From Meghimatium bilineatum (Eukaryota > Mollusca > Gastropoda > Stylommatophora > Philomycidae), in contig CM067316.1 in the NCBI GenBank assembly GCA_034231615.1, positions 29,689,714 through 29,753,713 of the forward strand: 64,000 bases of DNA, in the 5' to 3' direction. The position numbers and the translations under genes were made by a program. The notes beneath the pieces are model-generated. The model was not told the DNA's origin and searched no databases. It worked only from the letters and a program-made list of their open reading frames with translations. Below are positions 20,078-64,000 of the stretch, piece by piece; the stretch's first letter is position 1, and each line of letters starts with the position of its first letter.

Positions 20078-21993
20078 TGTATTCTGGCCTGTTACACATG
20101 ACTTCGTTGTTTTGCAGCTAAATAACTAAGAACACAGGCTAATTATACACAAATTAGGTCTCTTGCTGTTTAGTACGTCAAAACTCCGTGTTCTATGTCA
20201 TATTACTCACAAATTGGGTAAAGTTCAGCTTACTACACCAGAAATTGCAGTCTGGACACGAATTTGGTGTATTCTAGCTTACTACGTTAGAACTCGGTGT
20301 ATTCTGGCATATTACTCACAAGTTCATTGTTCTGAAGCTTACTACACTTCAATTGAGTCTATTCTGGCCTATTATACATCATTTCGTTGTATTGCAGCAT
20401 AATACGTCAGAATACTGTCGTATTACACACAGATCAGATCTTGCTGTTTAGTACGTCAAAACTCAGTGTTCTATTGCATATTACTCACAAATTGGGTGTA
20501 CTGCAGCTTACTACACCAGAAATTGCAGTCTGGACACACGAATTTGGTGTATTCTAGCTTACTACGTTAGAACTCGGTGTATTCTGGCATATTACTCACA
20601 AGTTCATTGTTCTGAAGCTTACTACACTTGAATTGAGTCTATTCTGGCCTATTATACATCATTTCGTAGTAATGCAGCATAATACGTCAGAATACTGTCG
20701 TATTACACACAAATTAGGTCTTGCTGTTTAGTACGTCAAAACTCAGTGTTTTGTGCATATTACTCACAAATTGGGTGTACTGAAGCTTACTACATTTGAA
20801 TTGAGTGTATTCTGGCCTGTTACACATGACTTCGTTGTTTTGCTGCTTAATAACTAAGAACACTGGCGAATTATACACAAATTAGGTCTCTTGCTGTTTA
20901 GTACGTCAAAACTCAGTGTTCTATGTCATATTACTCACAAATTGGGTAAAGTTCAGCTTACTACACCAGAAATTGCAGTCTGGACACACGAATTTGGTGT
21001 ATTCTAGCTTACTACGTTAGAACTCGGTGTATTCTGGCATATTACTCACGTTCATTGTTCTGAAGCTTACTACACATGAATTGAGTCTATTCTGGCCTAT
21101 TATACATCATTTCGTAGTAATGCAGCATAATACGTCAGAATACTGTCGTATTACACACAAATTAGGTCTTGCTGTTTAGTACGTCAAAACTCAGTGTTTT
21201 GTGGCATATTACTCACAAATTGGGTGTACTGAAGCTTACTACACTTCAATTGAGTCTATTCTGGCCTGTTACACATGACTTTGGTGTATTCTAGCTAACT
21301 ACGTTAGAACTCGGTGTATTCTGTCATATTACTCACAAATTCATTGTTCTGAAGCTTACTACACTTGAATTGAGTCTATTCTGGCCTATTATACATCATT
21401 TCATACTAATGCAGCATAATACGTCAGAATACTGTCGTATTACACACAAATTAGGTCTTGCTGTTTAGTACGTCAAAACTCAGTGTTTTGTGGCATATTA
21501 CTCACAAATTGGGTGTACTGAAGCTTACTACACTTGAATTGAGTGTATTCTGGCCTGTTACACATGACTTCGTTGTTTTGCAGCTTAATAACTAAGAACA
21601 CTGGCTAATTATACACAAATTAGGTCTCTTGCTGTTTAGTACGTCAAAACTCAGTGTTCTGTGGCATATTACTCACAAATTGGGTGTACTGCAGCTTACT
21701 ACACCAGAAATTGCAGTCTGGACACACGAATTTGGTGTATTCTAGCTTACTACATTAGAACTCGGTGTATTCTACCATATTACTCACAAGTTCATTGTTC
21801 TGAAGCTTACTACACTTGAATTGAGTCTATTCTGGCCTATTATACATCATTTCGTAGTAATGCAGCATAATACGTCAGAATACTGTCGTATTACACACAA
21901 ATTAGGTCTTGCTGTTTAGTACGTTAAACTCAGTGTTCTATTGCATATTACTCACAAATTGGGTGTACTGCAGCTTACTACACTTGAATTGAG
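20078..21993 (+). repeat. 13-mer, 8-mer, A/D fusion, 8-mer (728, 449, 289, 450 bp)
   Basis: A starts at 20078, 20806, 21255 (fusion) and 21544. From 20806 this parallels 2811-3548 at an offset of 17,995. F of the fusion unit has CATACTAATG, an allele shared with 43787, 45987, 51847 and 59216. The last unit has GTACGTTAAACTC in G, a 1-bp loss seen once. Confidence 0.84.
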
Positions 21994-26697: not shown

Positions 26698-28033
26698 GCC
26701 TGTTACACATGACTTCGTTGTTATGCAGCTTAATAACTAAGAACACTGGCGAATTATACACAAATTAGGTCTCTTGCTGTTTAGTACGTCAAAACTCAGT
26801 GTTCTATTGCATATTACTCACAAATTGGGTGTACTGCAGCTTACTACACCAGAAATTGCAGTCTGGACACACGAATTTGGTGTATTCTAGCTTACTACGT
26901 TAGAACTCGGTGTATTCTGGCATATTACTCACAAGTTCATTGTTCTGAAGCTTACTACATAAGAAGTGAGTGTATTCTGGCCTATTATACATCATTTCGT
27001 TGTATTGCAGCATAATACGTCAGAATACTGTCGTATTACACACAGATCAGATCTTGCTGTTTAGTACGTCAAAACTCAGTGTTCTATGGCATATTACTCA
27101 CAAATTGGGTGTACTGCAGCTTACTACACCAGAAATTGCAGTCTGGACACACGAATTTGGTGTATTCTAGCTTACTACGTTAGAACTCGGTGTATTCTGG
27201 CATATTACTCACGTTCATTGTTCTGAAGCTTACTACACATGAATTGAGTCTATTCTGGCCTATTATACATCATTTCGTAGTAATGCAGCATAATACGTCA
27301 GAATACTGTCGTATTACACACAAATTAGGTCTTGTTGTTTAGTACGTCAAAACTCAGTGTTTTGTGGCATATTACTCACAAATTGGGTGTACTGAAGCTT
27401 ACTACACTTGAATTGAGTGTATTCTGGCCTGTTACACATGACTTCGTTGTTTTGCAGCTTAATAACTAAGAACACTGGCGAATTATACACAAATTAGGTC
27501 TCTTGCTGTTTAGTACGTCAAAACTCATTGTTCTATTGCATATTACTCACAAATTGGGTGTACTGAAGCTTACTACACTTGAATTGAGTGTACTCTGACG
27601 TTACACATGACTGTTGTTGTGCAGCTTAATAACTAAGAACACTGGCGAATTATACACAAATTAGGTCTCTTGCTGTTTAGTACGTCAAAACTCAGTGTTC
27701 TATTGCATATTACTCACAAATTGGGTGTACTGCAGCTTACTACACCAGAAATTGCAGTCTGGACACACGAATTTGGTGTATTCTAGCTTACTACGTTAGA
27801 ACTCGGTGTATTCTGGCATATTACTCACAAGTTCATTGTTCTGAAGCTTACTACACTTGAATTGAGTCTATTCTGGCCTATTATACATCATTTCGTAGTA
27901 ATGCAGCATAATACGTCAGAATACTGTCGTATTACACACAAATTAGGTCTTGCTGTTTAGTACGTCAAAACTCAGTGTTTTGTGGCATATTACTCACAAA
28001 TTGGGTGTACAAGCTTACTACACATGAATTGAG
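26698..28033 (+). repeat. 13-mer (729), 3-mer (171) and 8-mer (445 bp)
   Basis: A starts at 26689, 27418 and 27589. The 13-mer has an E ending in ACATAAGAAGTGAG; because of that end a short ORF starts here at ATG or an equivalent codon. The 27589 A subunit is unusual (GTACTCTGACGTTACAC, then TGTTGTTGTGCAGC); the TTGTGCAGC allele recurs only near 38533. Confidence 0.84.
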
Positions 28034-44491: not shown

Positions 44492-46580
44492 TGTATTCTG
44501 GCCTGTTACACATGACTTCGTTGTTTTGCAGCTTAATAACTAAGAACACTGGCGAATTATACACAAATTAGGTTTCTTGCTGTTTAGTACGTCAAAACTC
44601 AGTGTTCTGTGGCATATTACTCACAAATTGGGTGTACTGCAGCTTACTACACCAGAAATTGCAGTCTGGACACACGAATTTGGTGTATTCTAGCTTACTA
44701 CGTTAGAACTCGGTGTATTCTGGCATATTACTCACAAGTTCATTGTTCTGAAGCTTACTACACTTGAATTGAGTCTATTCTGGCCTATTATACATCATTT
44801 CGTAGTAATGCAGCATAATACGTCAGAATACTGTCGTATTACACACAAATTAGGTCTTGCTGTTTAGTACGTCAAAACTCAGTGTTTTGTGGCATATTAC
44901 TCACAAATTGGGTGTACTGAAGCTTACTACACTTGAATTGAGTGTATTCTGGCCTGTTACACATGACTTCGTTGTTTTGCAGCTTAATAACTAAGAACAC
45001 TGGCTAATTATACACAAATTAGGTCTCTTGCTGTTTAGTACGTCAAAACTCAGTGTTCTGTGGCATATTACTCACAAATTGGGTGTACTGCAGCTTACTA
45101 CACCAGAAATTGCAGTCTGGACACACGAATTTGGTGTATTCTAGCTTACTACGTTAGAACTCGGTGTATTCTACCATATTACTCACAAGTTCATTGTTCT
45201 GAAGCTTACTACACTTGAATTGAGTCTATTCTGGCCTATTATACATCATTTCGTAGTAATGCAGCATAATACGTCAGAATACTGTCGTATTACACACAAA
45301 TTAGGTCTTGCTGTTTAGTACGTCAAAACTCAGTGTTTTGTGCATATTACTCACAAATTGGGTGTACTGAAGCTTACTACATTTGAATTGAGTGTATTCT
45401 GGCCTGTTACACATGACTTCGTTGTTTTGCTGCTTAATAACTAAGAACACTGGCGAATTATACACAAATTAGGTCTCTTGCTGTTTAGTACGTCAAAACT
45501 CAGCGTTCTATGTCATATTACTCACAAATTGGGTAAAGTTCAGCTTACTACACCAGAAATTGCAGTCTGGACACACGAATTTGGTGTATTCTAGCTTACT
45601 ACGTTAGAACTCGGTGTATTCTGGCATATTACTCACGTTCATTGTTCTGAAGCTTACTACACATGAATTGAGTCTATTCTGGCCTATTATACATCATTTC
45701 GTAGTAATGCAGCATAATACGTCAGAATACTGTCGTATTACACACAAATTAGGTCTTGCTGTTTAGTACGTCAAAACTCAGTGTTTTGTGGCATATTACT
45801 CACAAATTGGGTGTACTGAAGCTTACTACACTTCAATTGAGTCTATTCTGGCCTGTTACACATGACTTTGGTGTATTCTAGCTAACTACGTTAGAACTCG
45901 GTGTATTCTGTCATATTACTCACAAATTCATTGTTCTGAAGCTTACTACACTTGAATTGAGTCTATTCTGGCCTATTATACATCATTTCATACTAATGCA
46001 GCATAATACGTCAGAATACTGTCGTATTACACACAAATTAGGTCTTGCTGTTTAGTACGTCAAAACTCAGTGTTTTGTGGCATATTACTCACAAATTGGG
46101 TGTACTGAAGCTTACTACACTTGAATTGAGTGTATTCTGGCCTGTTACACATGACTTCGTTGTTTTGCAGCTTAATAACTAAGAACACTGGCTAATTATA
46201 CACAAATTAGGTCTCTTGCTGTTTAGTACGTCAAAACTCAGTGTTCTGTGGCATATTACTCACAAATTGGGTGTACTGCAGCTTACTACACCAGAAATTG
46301 CAGTCTGGACACACGAATTTGGTGTATTCTAGCTTACTACGTTAGAACTCGGTGTATTCTGTCATATTACTCACACGTTCATTGTTCTGAAGCTTACTAC
46401 ACTTGAATTGAGTCTATTCTGGCCTATTATACATCATTTCGTAGTAATGCAGCATAATACGTCAGAATACTGTCGTATTACACACAAATTAGGTCTTCCT
46501 GTTTAGTACGTCAAAACTCAGTGTTTTGTGCATATTACTCACAAATTGGGTGTACTGAAGCTTACTACATTTGAATTGAG
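44492..46580 (+). repeat. 8-mers and A/D cassette, start of the uniform domain
   Basis: A starts at 44492, 44943, 45393, 45842 (fusion) and 46131. From 45502 to 46501 the sequence repeats 43301-44300 at an offset of 2,201, including AGCGTTCTATG and GTCTTCCTG at either end. The 449+289+450 order from 45393 is the same cassette as 20806-21993. Confidence 0.85.
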
Positions 46581-47027
46581 TGTATTCTGGCCTGTTACAC
46601 ATGACTTCGTTGTTTTGCAGCTTAATAACTAAGAACACTGGCGAATTATACACAAATTAAGTCTCTTGCTGTTTAGTACGTCAAAACTCCGTGTTCTATG
46701 TCATATTACTCACAAATTGGGTAAAGTTCAGCTTACTACACCAGAAATTGCAGTCTGGACACGAATTTGGTGTATTCTAGCTTACTACGTTAGAACTCGG
46801 TGTATTCTGGCATATTACTCACGTTCATTGTTCTGAAGCTTACTACACTTCAATTGAGTCTATTCTGGCCTATTATACATCATTTCGTTGTATTGCAGCA
46901 TAATACGTCAGAATACTGTCGTATTACACACAAATTAGGTCTTGTTGTTTAGTACGTCAAAACTCAGTGTTTTGTGGCATATTACTCACAAATTGGGTGT
47001 ACTGAAGCTTACTACACTTGAATTGAG
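46581..47027 (+). repeat. Recombinant 8-mer (447 bp)
   Basis: B has AAATTAAGTCTC, shared only with 60040. C' is followed by the short GACACG D and by E with CACGTTC. F has ACACTTCAATTG with GTTGTATTG, and G has GGTCTTGTTG. These alleles otherwise belong to three different unit families, so this HOR is a mosaic of several exchanges or conversions. Confidence 0.83.
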
Positions 47028-56205: not shown

Positions 56206-57270
56206 TGTATTCTGGCCTGTTACACATGACTTCGTTGTTTTGCAGCTTAATAACTAAGAACACTGGCGAATAATACACAAATTAGGTCTCTTGCTGTTTA
56301 GTACGTCAAAACTCATTGTTCTATTGCATATTACTCACAAATTGGGTGTACTGAAGCTTACTACACTTGAATTGAGTGTATTCTGACTTGTTACACATGA
56401 CTCTTGTTTTGCAGCTTAATAACTAAGAACACTGGCGAATTATACACAAATTAGGTCTCTTGCTGTTTAGTACGTCAAAACTCAGTGTTCTATTGCATAT
56501 TACTCACAAATTGGGTGTACTGCAGCTTACTACACCAGAAATTGCAGTCTGGACACACGAATTTGGTGTATTCTAGCTTACTACGTTAGAACTCGGTGTA
56601 TTCTGGCATATTACTCACAAGTTCATTGTTCTGAAGCTTACTACACTTGAATTGAGTCTATTCTGGCCTATTATACATCATTTCGTAGTAATGCAGCATA
56701 ATACGTCAGAATACTGTCGTATTACACACATATTAGGTCTTGCTGTTTAGTACGTCAAAACTCAGTGTTTTGTGGCATATTACTCACAAATTGGGTGTAC
56801 AAGCTTACTACACTTGAATTGAGTGTATTCTGACTTGTTACACATGACTGTTGTTTTGCAGCTTAATAACTAAGAACACTGGCGAATTATACACAAATTA
56901 GGTCTCTTGCTGTTTAGTACGTCAAAACTCAGTGTTCTATTGCATATTACTCACAAATTGGGTGTACTGCAGCTTACTACACCAGAAATTGCAGTCTGGA
57001 CACACGAATTTGGTGTATTCTAGCTTACTACGTTAGAACTCGGTGTATTCTGGCATATTACTCACGTTCATTGTTCTGAAGCTTACTACACATGAATTGA
57101 GTCTATTCTGGCCTATTATACATCATTTCGTAGTAATGCAGCATAATACGTCAGAATACTGTCGTATTACACACAAATTAGGTCTTGTTGTTTAGTACGT
57201 CAAAACTCAGTGTTTTGTGGCATATTACTCACAAATTGGGTGTACTGAAGCTTACTACACTTGAATTGAG
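56206..57270 (+). repeat. 1,065-bp super-repeat, second copy
   Basis: A starts at 56206, 56377 and 56824. Markers include GGCGAATAATACAC, GACTCTTG, CACATATTAGG, GTGTACAAGCTT, CACGTTC and GGTCTTGTTG in the same order as in the first copy. A third 171-bp 3-mer follows at 57271, so the period breaks inside the following unit. Confidence 0.88.
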
Positions 57271-59807
57271 TGTATTCTGGCCTGTTACACATGACTTCGT
57301 TGTTTTGCAGCTTAATAACTAAGAACACTGGCGAATAATACACAAATTAGGTCTCTTGCTGTTTAGTACGTCAAAACTCATTGTTCTATTGCATATTACT
57401 CACAAATTGGGTGTACTGAAGCTTACTACACTTGAATTGAGTGTATTCTGACTTGTTACACATGACTCTTGTTTTGCAGCTTAATAACTAAGAACACTGG
57501 CGAATTATACACAAATTAGGTCTCTTGCTGTTTAGTACGTCAAAACTCAGTGTTCTATTGCATATTACTCACAAATTGGGTAAAGTTCAGCTTACTACAC
57601 CAGAAATTGCAGTCTGGACACGAATTTGGTGTATTCTAGCTTACTACGTTAGAACTCGGTGTATTCTGGCATATTACTCACAAGTTCATTGTTCTGAAGC
57701 TTACTACACTTCAATTGAGTCTATTCTGGCCTATTATACATCATTTCGTTGTATTGCAGCATAATACGTCAGAATACTGTCGTATTACACACAGATCAGA
57801 TCTTGCTGTTTAGTACGTCAAAACTCAGTGTTCTATTGCATATTACTCACAAATTGGGTGTACTGCAGCTTACTACACCAGAAATTGCAGTCTGGACACA
57901 CGAATTTGGTGTATTCTAGCTTACTACGTTAGAACTCGGTGTATTCTGGCATATTACTCACAAGTTCATTGTTCTGAAGCTTACTACACTTGAATTGAGT
58001 CTATTCTGGCCTATTATACATCATTTCGTAGTAATGCAGCATAATACGTCAGAATACTGTCGTATTACACACAAATTAGGTCTTGCTGTTTAGTACGTCA
58101 AAACTCAGTGTTTTGTGGCATATTACTCACAAATTGGGTGTACTGAAGCTTACTACACTTGAATTGAGTGTATTCTGGCCTGTTACACATGACTTCGTTG
58201 TTTTGCAGCTTAATAACTAAGAACACTGGCTAATTATACACAAATTAGGTCTCTTGCTGTTTAGTACGTCAAAACTCAGTGTTCTGTGGCATATTACTCA
58301 CAAATTGGGTGTACTGCAGCTTACTACACCAGAAATTGCAGTCTGGACACACGAATTTGGTGTATTCTAGCTTACTACGTTAGAACTCGGTGTATTCTAC
58401 CATATTACTCACAAGTTCATTGTTCTGAAGCTTACTACACTTGAATTGAGTCTATTCTGGCCTATTATACATCATTTCGTAGTAATGCAGCATAATACGT
58501 CAGAATACTGTCGTATTACACACAAATTAGGTCTTGCTGTTTAGTACGTCAAAACTCAGTGTTTTGTGCATATTACTCACAAATTGGGTGTACTGAAGCT
58601 TACTACATTTGAATTGAGTGTATTCTGGCCTGTTACACATGACTTCGTTGTTTTGCTGCTTAATAACTAAGAACACTGGCGAATTATACACAAATTAGGT
58701 CTCTTGCTGTTTAGTACGTCAAAACTCAGTGTTCTATGTCATATTACTCACAAATTGGGTAAAGTTCAGCTTACTACACCAGAAATTGCAGTCTGGACAC
58801 ACGAATTTGGTGTATTCTAGCTTACTACGTTAGAACTCGGTGTATTCTGGCATATTACTCACGTTCATTGTTCTGAAGCTTACTACACATGAATTGAGTC
58901 TATTCTGGCCTATTATACATCATTTCGTAGTAATGCAGCATAATACGTCAGAATACTGTCGTATTACACACAATTTAGGACTTGCTGTTTAGTACGTCAA
59001 AACTCAGTGTTTTGTGGCATATTACTCACAAATTGGGTGTACTGAAGCTTACTACACTTCAATTGAGTCTATTCTGGCCTGTTACACATGACTTTGGTGT
59101 ATTCTAGCTAACTACGTTAGAACTCGGTGTATTCTGTCATATTACTCACAAATTCATTGTTCTGAAGCTTACTACACTTGAATTGAGTCTATTCTGGCCT
59201 ATTATACATCATTTCATACTAATGCAGCATAATACGTCAGAATACTGTCGTATTACACACAAATTAGGTCTTGCTGTTTAGTACGTCAAAACTCAGTGTT
59301 TTGTGGCATATTACTCACAAATTGGGTGTACTGAAGCTTACTACACTTGAATTGAGTGTATTCTGGCCTGTTACACATGACTTCGTTGTTTTGCAGCTTA
59401 ATAACTAAGAACACTGGCTAATTATACACAAATTAGGTCTCTTGCTGTTTAGTACGTCAAAACTCAGTGTTCTGTGGCATATTACTCACAAATTGGGTGT
59501 ACTGCAGCTTACTACACCAGAAATTGCAGTCTGGACACACGAATTTGGTGTATTCTAGCTTACTACGTTAGAACTCGGTGTATTCTGTCATATTACTCAC
59601 ACGTTCATTGTTCTGAAGCTTACTACACTTGAATTGAGTCTATTCTGGCCTATTATACATCATTTCGTAGTAATGCAGCATAATACGTCAGAATACTGTC
59701 GTATTACACACAAATTAGGTCTTGCTGTTTAGTACGTCAAAACTCAGTGTTTTGTGGCATATTACTCACAAATTGGGTGTACTGAAGCTTACTACATTTG
59801 AATTGAG
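57271..59807 (+). repeat. 3-mer, 13-mer, 8-mers and A/D cassette
   Basis: A starts at 57271, 57442 (13-mer, 727 bp, C' with G'), 58169, 58619, 59068 (fusion) and 59357. G at about 58972 reads CACAATTTAGGACTTG, seen once. The fusion unit supplies 59216-59343, the exact source sequence of the inverted copy about 520 bp further right. Confidence 0.86.
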
Positions 59808-59863
59808 TGTATTCTGGCCTGTTACACATGACTTCGTTGTTTTGCAGCTTAATAGTTATTAAT
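59808..59863 (+). repeat. Truncated A subunit and 9-bp filler at the inversion breakpoint
   Basis: A runs normally to 59854 (CAGCTTAATA) and then switches to GTTATTAAT (59855-59863), which matches no subunit in place. TTAATA (59849-59854) and TATTAA (59857-59862) form a small inverted repeat with a 2-nt centre. Short inverted filler at a breakpoint fits replication template switching, but an assembly fold-back must be excluded. Confidence 0.8.
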
Positions 59864-59991
59864 TAGTAAGCTTCAGTACACCCAATTTGTGAGTAATATG
59901 CCACAAAACACTGAGTTTTGACGTACTAAACAGCAAGACCTAATTTGTGTGTAATACGACAGTATTCTGACGTATTATGCTGCATTAGTAT
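59864..59991 (-). repeat. 128-bp exact inverted copy of 59216-59343
   Basis: The sequence is the perfect reverse complement of the end of F, all of G and most of H. It includes the CATACTAATG allele of F, which occurs in only five other places (21403, 43787, 45987, 51847 and 59216). The 59216 copy, about 520 bp upstream, is the nearest and matches over all 128 bases. It is the only minus-strand satellite sequence I found in the window. Confidence 0.93.
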
Positions 59992-60022
59992 TAGTAATGC
60001 AGCATAATACGTCAGAATACTG
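59960..60022. other. Perfect palindrome, 28-bp arms with 7-nt loop
   Basis: The left arm (59960-59987) lies in the inverted segment and the right arm (59995-60022) in the resumed plus-strand F; the loop is GTATTAG. It arises because the inverted and direct copies of the F end face each other, and each arm contains half-sites of the 26-bp F/G dyad. A hairpin of this size is a likely polymerase stall site. Confidence 0.92.
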
Positions 60023-60691
60023 GCGAATTATACACAAATTAAGTCTCTTGCTGTTTAGTACGTCAAAACTCCGTGTTCTATGTCATATTACTCACAAATT
60101 GGGTAAAGTTCAGCTTACTACACCAGAAATTGCAGTCTGGACACGAATTTGGTGTATTCTAGCTTACTACGTTAGAACTCGGTGTATTCTGGCATATTAC
60201 TCACAAGTTCATTGTTCTGAAGCTTACTACACTTCAATTGAGTCTATTCTGGCCTATTATACATCATTTCGTTGTATTGCAGCATAATACGTCAGAATAC
60301 TGTCGTATTACACACAGATCAGATCTTGCTGTTTAGTACGTCAAAACTCAGTGTTCTATTGCATATTACTCACAAATTGGGTGTACTGCAGCTTACTACA
60401 CCAGAAATTGCAGTCTGGACACACGAATTTGGTGTATTCTAGCTTACTACGTTAGAACTCGGTGTATTCTGGCATATTACTCACAAGTTCATTGTTCTGA
60501 AGCTTACTACACTTGAATTGAGTCTATTCTGGCCTATTATACATCATTTCGTAGTAATGCAGCATAATACGTCAGAATACTGTCGTATTACACACAAATT
60601 AGGTCTTGCTGTTTAGTACGTCAAAACTCAGTGTTTTGTGGCATATTACTCACAAATTGGGTGTACTGAAGCTTACTACACTTGAATTGAG
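59992..60691 (+). repeat. F/B-junction unit followed by 13-mer remainder
   Basis: Plus-strand sequence resumes inside F and passes at 60020/60021 directly into B (GTCAGAATACTGGCGAATT). Normally F is followed by G (GTCAGAATACTGTCG). The rest is B-C'-D-E-F-G'-C-D-E-F-G-H and matches the later part of the 20078 and 57442 13-mers, with the AAATTAAGTCTC B allele of 46581. The open stretch from 59997 into B is a consequence of this junction and is not a gene. Confidence 0.88.
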
Positions 60692-62490
60692 TGTATTCTG
60701 GCCTGTTACACATGACTTCGTTGTTTTGCAGCTTAATAACTAAGAACACTGGCTAATTATACACAAATTAGGTCTCTTGCTGTTTAGTACGTCAAAACTC
60801 AGTGTTCTGTGGCATATTACTCACAAATTGGGTGTACTGCAGCTTACTACACCAGAAATTGCAGTCTGGACACACGAATTTGGTGTATTCTAGCTTACTA
60901 CATTAGAACTCGGTGTATTCTACCATATTACTCACAAGTTCATTGTTCTGAAGCTTACTACACTTGAATTGAGTCTATTCTGGCCTATTATACATCATTT
61001 CGTAGTAATGCAGCATAATACGTCAGAATACTGTCGTATTACACACAAATTAGGTCTTGCTGTTTAGTACGTCAAAACTCAGTGTTTTGTGCATATTACT
61101 CACAAATTGGGTGTACTGAAGCTTACTACATTTGAATTGAGTGTATTCTGGCCTGTTACACATGACTTCGTTGTTTTGCTGCTTAATAACTAAGAACACT
61201 GGCGAATTATACACAAATTAGGTCTCTTGCTGTTTAGTACGTCAAAACTCAGTGTTCTATGTCATATTACTCACAAATTGGGTAAAGTTCAGCTTACTAC
61301 ACCAGAAATTGCAGTCTGGACACACGAATTTGGTGTATTCTAGCTTACTACGTTAGAACTCGGTGTATTCTGGCATATTACTCACGTTCATTGTTCTGAA
61401 GCTTACTACACATGAATTGAGTCTATTCTGGCCTATTATACATCATTTCGTAGTAATGCAGCATAATACGTCAGAATACTGTCGTATTACACACAAATTA
61501 GGTCTTGTTGTTTAGTACGTCAAAACTCAGTGTTTTGTGGCATATTACTCACAAATTGGGTGTACTGAAGCTTACTACACTTGAATTGAGTGTATTCTGG
61601 CCTGTTACACATGACTTCGTTGTTTTGCAGCTTAATAACTAAGAACACTGGCGAATAATACACAAATTAGGTCTCTTGCTGTTTAGTACGTCAAAACTCA
61701 TTGTTCTATTGCATATTACTCACAAATTGGGTGTACTGAAGCTTACTACACTTGAATTGAGTGTATTCTGACTTGTTACACATGACTCTTGTTTTGCAGC
61801 TTAATAACTAAGAACACTGGCGAATTATACACAAATTAGGTCTCTTGCTGTTTAGTACGTCAAAACTCAGTGTTCTATTGCATATTACTCACAAATTGGG
61901 TGTACTGCAGCTTACTACACCAGAAATTGCAGTCTGGACACACGAATTTGGTGTATTCTAGCTTACTACGTTAGAACTCGGTGTATTCTGGCATATTACT
62001 CACAAGTTCATTGTTCTGAAGCTTACTACACTTCAATTGAGTCTATTCTGGCCTATTATACATCATTTCGTTGTATTGCAGCATAATACGTCAGAATACT
62101 GTCGTATTACACACAGATCAGATCTTGCTGTTTAGTACGTCAAAACTCAGTGTTCTATTGCATATTACTCACAAATTGGGTGTACTGCAGCTTACTACAC
62201 CAGAAATTGCAGTCTGGACACACGAATTTGGTGTATTCTAGCTTACTACGTTAGAACTCGGTGTATTCTGGCATATTACTCACAAGTTCATTGTTCTGAA
62301 GCTTACTACACTTGAATTGAGTCTATTCTGGCCTATTATACATCATTTCGTAGTAATGCAGCATAATACGTCAGAATACTGTCGTATTACACACAAATTA
62401 GGTCTTGCTGTTTAGTACGTCAAAACTCAGTGTTTTGTGGCATATTACTCACAAATTGGGTGTACTGAAGCTTACTACACTTGAATTGAG
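60692..62490 (+). repeat. 1,799-bp super-repeat
   Basis: A starts at 60692, 61142, 61591 (3-mer) and 61762 (13-mer), giving 450+449+171+729. The next period begins at 62491 with the same order, and the G' marker recurs exactly 1,799 bp apart (60315 and 62114). The match spans about 60147-62030 against 61946-63830. Confidence 0.88.
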
Positions 62491-64000
62491 TGTATTCTGG
62501 CCTGTTACACATGACTTCGTTGTTTTGCAGCTTAATAACTAAGAACACTGGCTAATTATACACAAATTAGGTCTCTTGCTGTTTAGTACGTCAAAACTCA
62601 GTGTTCTGTGGCATATTACTCACAAATTGGGTGTACTGCAGCTTACTACACCAGAAATTGCAGTCTGGACACACGAATTTGGTGTATTCTAGCTTACTAC
62701 ATTAGAACTCGGTGTATTCTACCATATTACTCACAAGTTCATTGTTCTGAAGCTTACTACACTTGAATTGAGTCTATTCTGGCCTATTATACATCATTTC
62801 GTAGTAATGCAGCATAATACGTCAGAATACTGTCGTATTACACACAAATTAGGTCTTGCTGTTTAGTACGTCAAAACTCAGTGTTTTGTGCATATTACTC
62901 ACAAATTGGGTGTACTGAAGCTTACTACATTTGAATTGAGTGTATTCTGGCCTGTTACACATGACTTCGTTGTTTTGCTGCTTAATAACTAAGAACACTG
63001 GCGAATTATACACAAATTAGGTCTCTTGCTGTTTAGTACGTCAAAACTCAGTGTTCTATGTCATATTACTCACAAATTGGGTAAAGTTCAGCTTACTACA
63101 CCAGAAATTGCAGTCTGGACACACGAATTTGGTGTATTCTAGCTTACTACGTTAGAACTCGGTGTATTCTGGCATATTACTCACGTTCATTGTTCTGAAG
63201 CTTACTACACATGAATTGAGTCTATTCTGGCCTATTATACATCATTTCGTAGTAATGCAGCATAATACGTCAGAATACTGTCGTATTACACACAAATTAG
63301 GTCTTGTTGTTTAGTACGTCAAAACTCAGTGTTTTGTGGCATATTACTCACAAATTGGGTGTACTGAAGCTTACTACACTTGAATTGAGTGTATTCTGGC
63401 CTGTTACACATGACTTCGTTGTTTTGCAGCTTAATAACTAAGAACACTGGCGAATAATACACAAATTAGGTCTCTTGCTGTTTAGTACGTCAAAACTCAT
63501 TGTTCTATTGCATATTACTCACAAATTGGGTGTACTGAAGCTTACTACACTTGAATTGAGTGTATTCTGACTTGTTACACATGACTCTTGTTTTGCAGCT
63601 TAATAACTAAGAACACTGGCGAATTATACACAAATTAGGTCTCTTGCTGTTTAGTACGTCAAAACTCAGTGTTCTATTGCATATTACTCACAAATTGGGT
63701 GTACTGCAGCTTACTACACCAGAAATTGCAGTCTGGACACACGAATTTGGTGTATTCTAGCTTACTACGTTAGAACTCGGTGTATTCTGGCATATTACTC
63801 ACAAGTTCATTGTTCTGAAGCTTACTACACTTGAATTGAGTCTATTCTGGCCTATTATACATCATTTCGTAGTAATGCAGCATAATACGTCAGAATACTG
63901 TCGTATTACACACAAATTAGGTCTTGCTGTTTAGTACGTCAAAACTCAGTGTTTTGTGGCATATTACTCACAAATTGGGTGTACTGAAGCTTACTACACT
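62491..64000 (+). repeat. Second 1,799-bp super-repeat, cut by the window edge
   Basis: A starts at 62491, 62941, 63390 (3-mer) and 63561. Up to about 63830 it follows the previous period; then E ends ACACTTG and F has GTAGTAATG, so the last unit is a standard 8-mer and not a 13-mer. The window ends inside H, so the array continues to the right. Confidence 0.87.

Follow-up and report, generated by a model that had tools for sequence, protein, structure and literature searches.

A short inverted templated insertion in an assembled satellite array

Introduction

In a four-point template switch, DNA is transiently copied in reverse orientation before synthesis goes back to the original strand (Walker et al. 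2021, PMC7954356). In the great-ape gold-standard set described in that report, the reverse pieces have a median length of 12 bp and a maximum length of 128 bp. Insertions linked to MMBIR have also been described, and in one set 80% of the junctions carried 2-12 bp of microhomology (PMC8421209). For satellite DNA, large inversions are known in alpha-satellite arrays, including one of 3.2 Mb (PMC11062924), and a break-induced-replication model has been proposed for satellite HORs (PMC8997354). A search of titles and abstract openings found no published description of a satellite array that carries a short, templated insertion in inverted orientation.

Template switches are hard to spot in satellites, where all templates are repeats. 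At the locus described here, HOR markers reveal what the site was like before the event and to which class the donor belonged, and the event can thus be read base by base. The tract is a real feature of the assembly, and it is of an ordinary kind, a template-switch insertion, that happens to be unusually well resolved. It is a new and well-marked example of a known mutation class.

Results

The stretch of DNA that was analysed (the window, 64 kb, C19:29,689,714-29,753,713) belongs to a genome assembly of 1.61 Gb in 32 contigs, and it was studied together with 160 kb of flanking DNA as a 224-kb block. The window is a satellite of head-to-tail units, for which autocorrelation gave strong lags at 451, 280, 169, 111, 60 and 30 bp, and the 30- and 60-bp peaks under the 451-bp HOR point to a possible old unit of approximately 30 bp. 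Twenty probes of 500 bases placed the array between approximately 29.2-29.3 and 30.2-30.4 Mb of the 66.95-Mb contig. Nine of the 20 probes were satellite and had a uniform orientation, and those near both array ends were less window-like than the middle ones. Outside the array, C19:27000001-27000500 contained a different short tandem repeat in its first 60 bases. At C5:7195000-7234999 there is another array of this satellite family; it has diverged, and its orientation along the contig is the opposite one. The satellite was also looked for by exact pattern in viral and in prokaryote contigs, in scans that may omit entries from the window's own genome, with 0 matches each, and a comparison of positions 57001-64000 with Rfam gave 0 matches at gathering score.

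The whole 224-kb block is on one strand except at a single tract, the parts of which are listed in Table 1. The initial annotation had reported a 128-bp perfect reverse complement of an upstream stretch and had called it the sole strand switch in the 64 kb. Both statements hold: all 128 of the 128 bases match, direct comparison showed that neither end of the match extends, and no other strand switch was found across the 224 kb of array. The inverted tract is far beyond chance. When 59855-59991 was masked, non-self inverted matches in the rest of the window reached at most 12 bp. Similarly, the longest inverted match of 392 random 128-bp stretches of the 224 kb within their own ±2 kb had a median of 9 bp and a maximum of 12 bp, compared with 128 bp for the tract. 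When the 224 kb was divided into 40-bp bins, 14 bins were dominated by reverse words, and every one of them was located at the tract. The second-longest run of window-unique words (16 start positions, compared with 148 at the tract) was located at 27584-27610, where a small local variant has several changes clustered together.

Table 1. Features of the tract, its flanks and its candidate donors (positions in the window).
Feature	Position	Strand	Remarks
Whole novel tract	59855..60018		164 bp replacing the nine bases ACTAAGAAC of the sister units; net +155 bp (joined flanks compared with 8 intact sisters)
Inverted piece TAGTTATTAA, 10 bp	59853..59862	-	reverse complement of TTAATAACTA, which is the position in the monomer that copying had just departed from; 2 bp common to the left flank
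Single T	59863..59863		templated by neither adjoining piece
Inverted templated copy, 128 bp	59864..59991	-	exact reverse complement of 59216-59343
Forward piece, 31 bp	59992..60022	+	different monomer type; 89 other forward copies in the window
Resident unit resumes	60019..60318	+	nine bases past the departure point
Perfect 28-bp palindrome	59960..60022		arms 59960-59987 and 59995-60022; 7-nt loop GTATTAG; at the second turn
Nearest exact donor	59216..59343	+	CATACTAATG class; other exact copies in the window at 21403, 43789, 45990 and 51848
Rival donor, unit immediately upstream	59667..59794	+	2/128 bases differ from the inverted copy, both within the last four copied
In-window sister unit, intact site	45629..46932	+	ACTAAGAAC at 46628-46636

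The site as it was before the event is preserved in sister units. When the left flank (58855-59854) was joined to the right flank (60019-60318) and aligned with the in-window sister unit, 1298 of the 1300 bases aligned with 3 mismatches and 12 gap bases, nine of which were ACTAAGAAC at the junction. The right-flank marker AATTAAGTCTC was found at eight other sites in the 224 kb, and the site was intact at all eight. Five of these sister units differed from the joined flanks by 3-5 mismatches over 1,495-1,499 columns (900 + 600 bp of flank). The remaining three had 31, 32 and 50 mismatches over the same flanks, and the sister with 50 is the in-window unit, which matches only nearer the site. 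Two substitutions were private to the flanks of the tract; they were located in columns 29 and 37 of the 1,582 alignment columns, at the far left end and away from the junction. The spacing between CATACTAATG and the marker was 662-666 bp in six of the eight sisters, compared with 822 bp at the tract, and the other two did not have the CATACTAATG allele within 1.5 kb.

These intact and, in five cases, nearly identical sisters place the right flank in the same HOR unit as the left flank, contrary to an earlier suggestion that the right edge enters a different HOR. The apparent change of HOR at this edge is the forward templated piece. There is good support for template switching with templated inverted copying, since the state before the event can be seen in the intact sisters. 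In addition, the absence of mismatches in 128 bp and the near-identity of the intact sisters imply that the template-switch event would be younger than the local amplification of its HOR unit.

The pieces of the tract were mapped by exact matching and by a Viterbi copying model that was run on the local pre-event sequence. Resident sequence continues to 59852-59854 and is followed by the 10-bp inverted piece, the single T, the 128-bp inverted copy and the forward piece, after which resident sequence resumes; the junction overlaps are 2, 0, 0 and 4 bp. The copying model explained the locus with five pieces and one mismatch in total, while forward-only copying required 12 pieces and was 375 log units worse. 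Short pieces are assigned by this model to arbitrary members of many identical copies, and what it gives for them is the class alone. Templates account for all bases of the pieces except the T, for which an 11-bp inverted match to 3 variant copies, at 59862-59872, could be the source. The complement of the 10-bp inverted piece, TTAATAACTA, has 133 forward copies in the window. At the far end of the tract, the last 4 bases of the forward piece, ACTG (60019-60022), are common to the resident sequence.

The left edge had previously been described as a 9-bp filler with a TTAATA/TATTAA inverted repeat. The inverted repeat is indeed there, as TTAATA-GT-TATTAA at 59849-59862, and it is formed by the 10-bp inverted piece. 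The filler, in contrast, is mostly templated and consists of 8 bp of inverted copy and one T. Random filler is largely rejected, as 8 of the 9 bases continue the in-register inverted copy. This argument from the 10-bp piece is weakened by the fact that approximately 3% of random 8-mers with the composition of the array match an inverted array word somewhere.

Both turns of the path are in register. After the first turn, copying runs back over the monomer position from which it has just departed, and after the second it goes forward from the position at which it has arrived. Such turns are expected by chance for 2.0% of inverted starting points and for 1.2% of forward re-entry points, and the figure of 2.0% for the first turn weighs less because the piece is short (10 bp). 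If both inverted pieces were derived from the 59216 unit, they would be collinear in the reverse direction with 54 bp (59344-59397) skipped. The left turn is located within CTTAATAACTAAG, which by inspection is a weak quasi-palindrome (CTTA/TAAG) and is present in 133 copies in the window and 473 copies in the 224 kb. At the second turn, the 28-bp palindrome sits inside an imperfect inverted repeat with arms that are 111/124 identical. As single-strand DNA, the segment 59840-60125 gave a fold of -105.8 kcal/mol with a z of -23.6.

Exact forward copies of the 128 bp were found at five positions in the window and at 13 positions in the 224 kb. The stretch at 59216 is therefore merely the nearest of these copies, and not the unique donor approximately 520 bp upstream that had been proposed. 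The copying model favours a donor of the CATACTAATG class, within which the specific copy among identical donors is indistinguishable. A search of the whole genome for the 128 bp gave at least 17 matches. Among the matches listed, two were on the + strand, namely the tract itself and a 96% match on C5, where the array is oppositely oriented.

The choice of donor bears on a second way to produce the tract. In a local snap-back, the nascent strand would fold on the unit immediately upstream, copy back, and make its forward turn with an untemplated or slipped loop, GTATTAG. Such an event is of the same class as the one favoured here and differs from it in the donor. It would accommodate the exact match of 124 bp of the tract to the immediate unit (59671-59794) and the register of both turns, and it could obtain the left piece from the departure site itself and the 28-bp palindrome from self-copying. 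In the simple copying model, the immediate unit was 16 log units worse than a CATACTAATG-class donor, with 3 mismatches in the turn and inverted pieces compared with one; the real gap is smaller than this value, as the model takes no account of distance or junctional filler. We consider a snap-back on the immediate unit to be unlikely.

The tract was also considered as an assembly, chimeric-read or library artefact, for which a single occurrence is what would be expected. Three junction words, those at 59844-59873 and 59977-60006 included, each occur once in the 224 kb, which is also the scope within which the right junction is known to be private. A full-length match to the left junction was found nowhere else in a genome search in which 40 of 44 candidates were scored and very common words were skipped. 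Partial matches to the left junction were observed on eight further contigs (C6, C7, C8, C11, C13, C20, C24 and C25). Against an artefact, the insert is short and interstitial, it is back in the same unit nine bases on, and its flanks are otherwise near-identical to the sister units. Missed-adapter palindromes, for example, would extend to the end of the read. An origin of this type is judged to be improbable.

Double-strand-break end joining with a polymerase-theta-type templated insertion would account for a nine-base deletion with templated inserts that include reverse-complement sequence, as is seen in known scars (PMC5068794). However, the inserts described in that report are mostly and typically shorter than 25 bp, with snap-back as a minor part, while the inverted piece is 128 bp here, and this makes end joining a rather improbable source of the tract. 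A simple in-place inversion of an array stretch would likewise place inverted sequence between forward flanks, but it is very improbable indeed, as the intact sisters have only nine bases at the site and re-inversion of five intervals failed to restore the ancestral sequence (the restored junction words of 10, 12 and 16 bases occur 0 times in the 224 kb).

Discussion

Our data are best explained by one mutational event with four template switches, in which 164 bp probably replaced nine resident bases in one HOR unit. At TTAATA, the growing 3' end would have come off its template and reversed direction in register, copying approximately 10 bases of the complementary strand. Without another change of direction, it would then have jumped 54 bp onward and copied 128 bp from a unit of the CATACTAATG class. 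A forward turn, in register, would have followed at TAGTAATG, with approximately 31 bp copied, and the original monomer would finally have been rejoined at ACTG, nine bases beyond the departure point. The templated match of each piece, the intact site of the sisters, the succession of the pieces and the in-register turns can be read directly, while the occurrence of a single event, its direction of synthesis and the polymerase are inferred. The event may have been driven by fold-back, or by switching between leading and lagging strands, where a fork had stalled or a break had been resected.

Several observations count against this sequence of four switches, among them the small junction overlaps and the shortness of the 10-bp piece on which the register of the first turn depends. 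The quasi-palindrome CTTAATAACTAAG at the left turn is common, and there is only one such event in the 224 kb. In addition, the second turn is blunt and needs two different units, with CATAC... going back and TAGTAATG coming forward.

The initial annotation had interpreted the tract as template switching of a FoSTeS/MMBIR-like kind. The templated inverted copying is upheld by the intact sisters, while FoSTeS/MMBIR is one of several pathways that lead to such an outcome, and the junction overlaps are scant (2, 0, 0 and 4 bp). An origin by FoSTeS/MMBIR is possible, and a return that is short and in register is at least equally compatible with the short-range class of four-point template switches.

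If reads confirm the tract, strand-orientation scans of complete satellite arrays could provide a direct rate for this mutation. The tally so far is one event in 224 kb of the C19 array, and no strand switch was seen in 40 kb of the C5 array at 1-kb resolution. As a tentative suggestion, which we regard as somewhat doubtful, in-register antiparallel switching between HOR units may recurrently reverse strands in satellites and leave quasi-palindromes, which could give rise to larger inversions or be lost rapidly. Such switching perhaps takes place on sister strands that are misaligned where a fork has stalled. In the quasi-palindrome that was left here, 28 base pairs are perfect and lie within an imperfect inverted repeat that measures approximately 125 bp. 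If the suggestion is true, rapid loss of such structures would help to explain why arrays stay on one strand.

The tract shares features with several known systems. Like the inversions reported for alpha-satellite, it is a strand switch inside a HOR array, but those inversions are large, whereas the present case is a templated copy of 128 bp (PMC11062924). Polymerase-theta insertions, as described in the report cited above, are similar in their small resident loss and flank-derived inserts; the insert here is much longer and is mostly reverse-complement (PMC5068794). ODIRA, or inverted triplication by leading-lagging switching at short inverted repeats, also has two reversals and an inverted piece between forward copies. 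The described products are gene-sized, in contrast to the 128 bp observed here, where the second of the forward copies extends over only about 31 bp (PMC10766183). With regard to reversal at short inverted repeats, CTTA/TAAG is present at the left turn; for the right turn no such pair could be established, and the 28-bp palindrome there belongs to the product.

The likeness to MMBIR lies in the serial copying of several pieces from nearby templates, followed by a return to the locus (PMC8421209). Serial templated pieces, which MMBIR and FoSTeS have in common, are what is found in the tract. The junctions of the reported set mostly carry microhomology, of which there is little at this locus.

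The four-point template switch resembles the tract in its local reverse copying and return, its net gain in length and the perfect inverted repeats in its product, and the inverted length found here equals the maximum of the gold-standard set (PMC7954356). In fact, the inserted piece is the reverse complement of sequence approximately 520 bp away, and copying returns to the original strand at 60019 with the ancestral state known from the eight intact sisters. The donors here are repeats, so that the exact source is ambiguous, and the setting is a satellite. A four-point event has two switches and one inserted piece, a single reverse piece between them (PMC7954356), while the best path through this tract takes four switches and has three inserted pieces. 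It is therefore a serial form of template switching, and not a strict four-point event.
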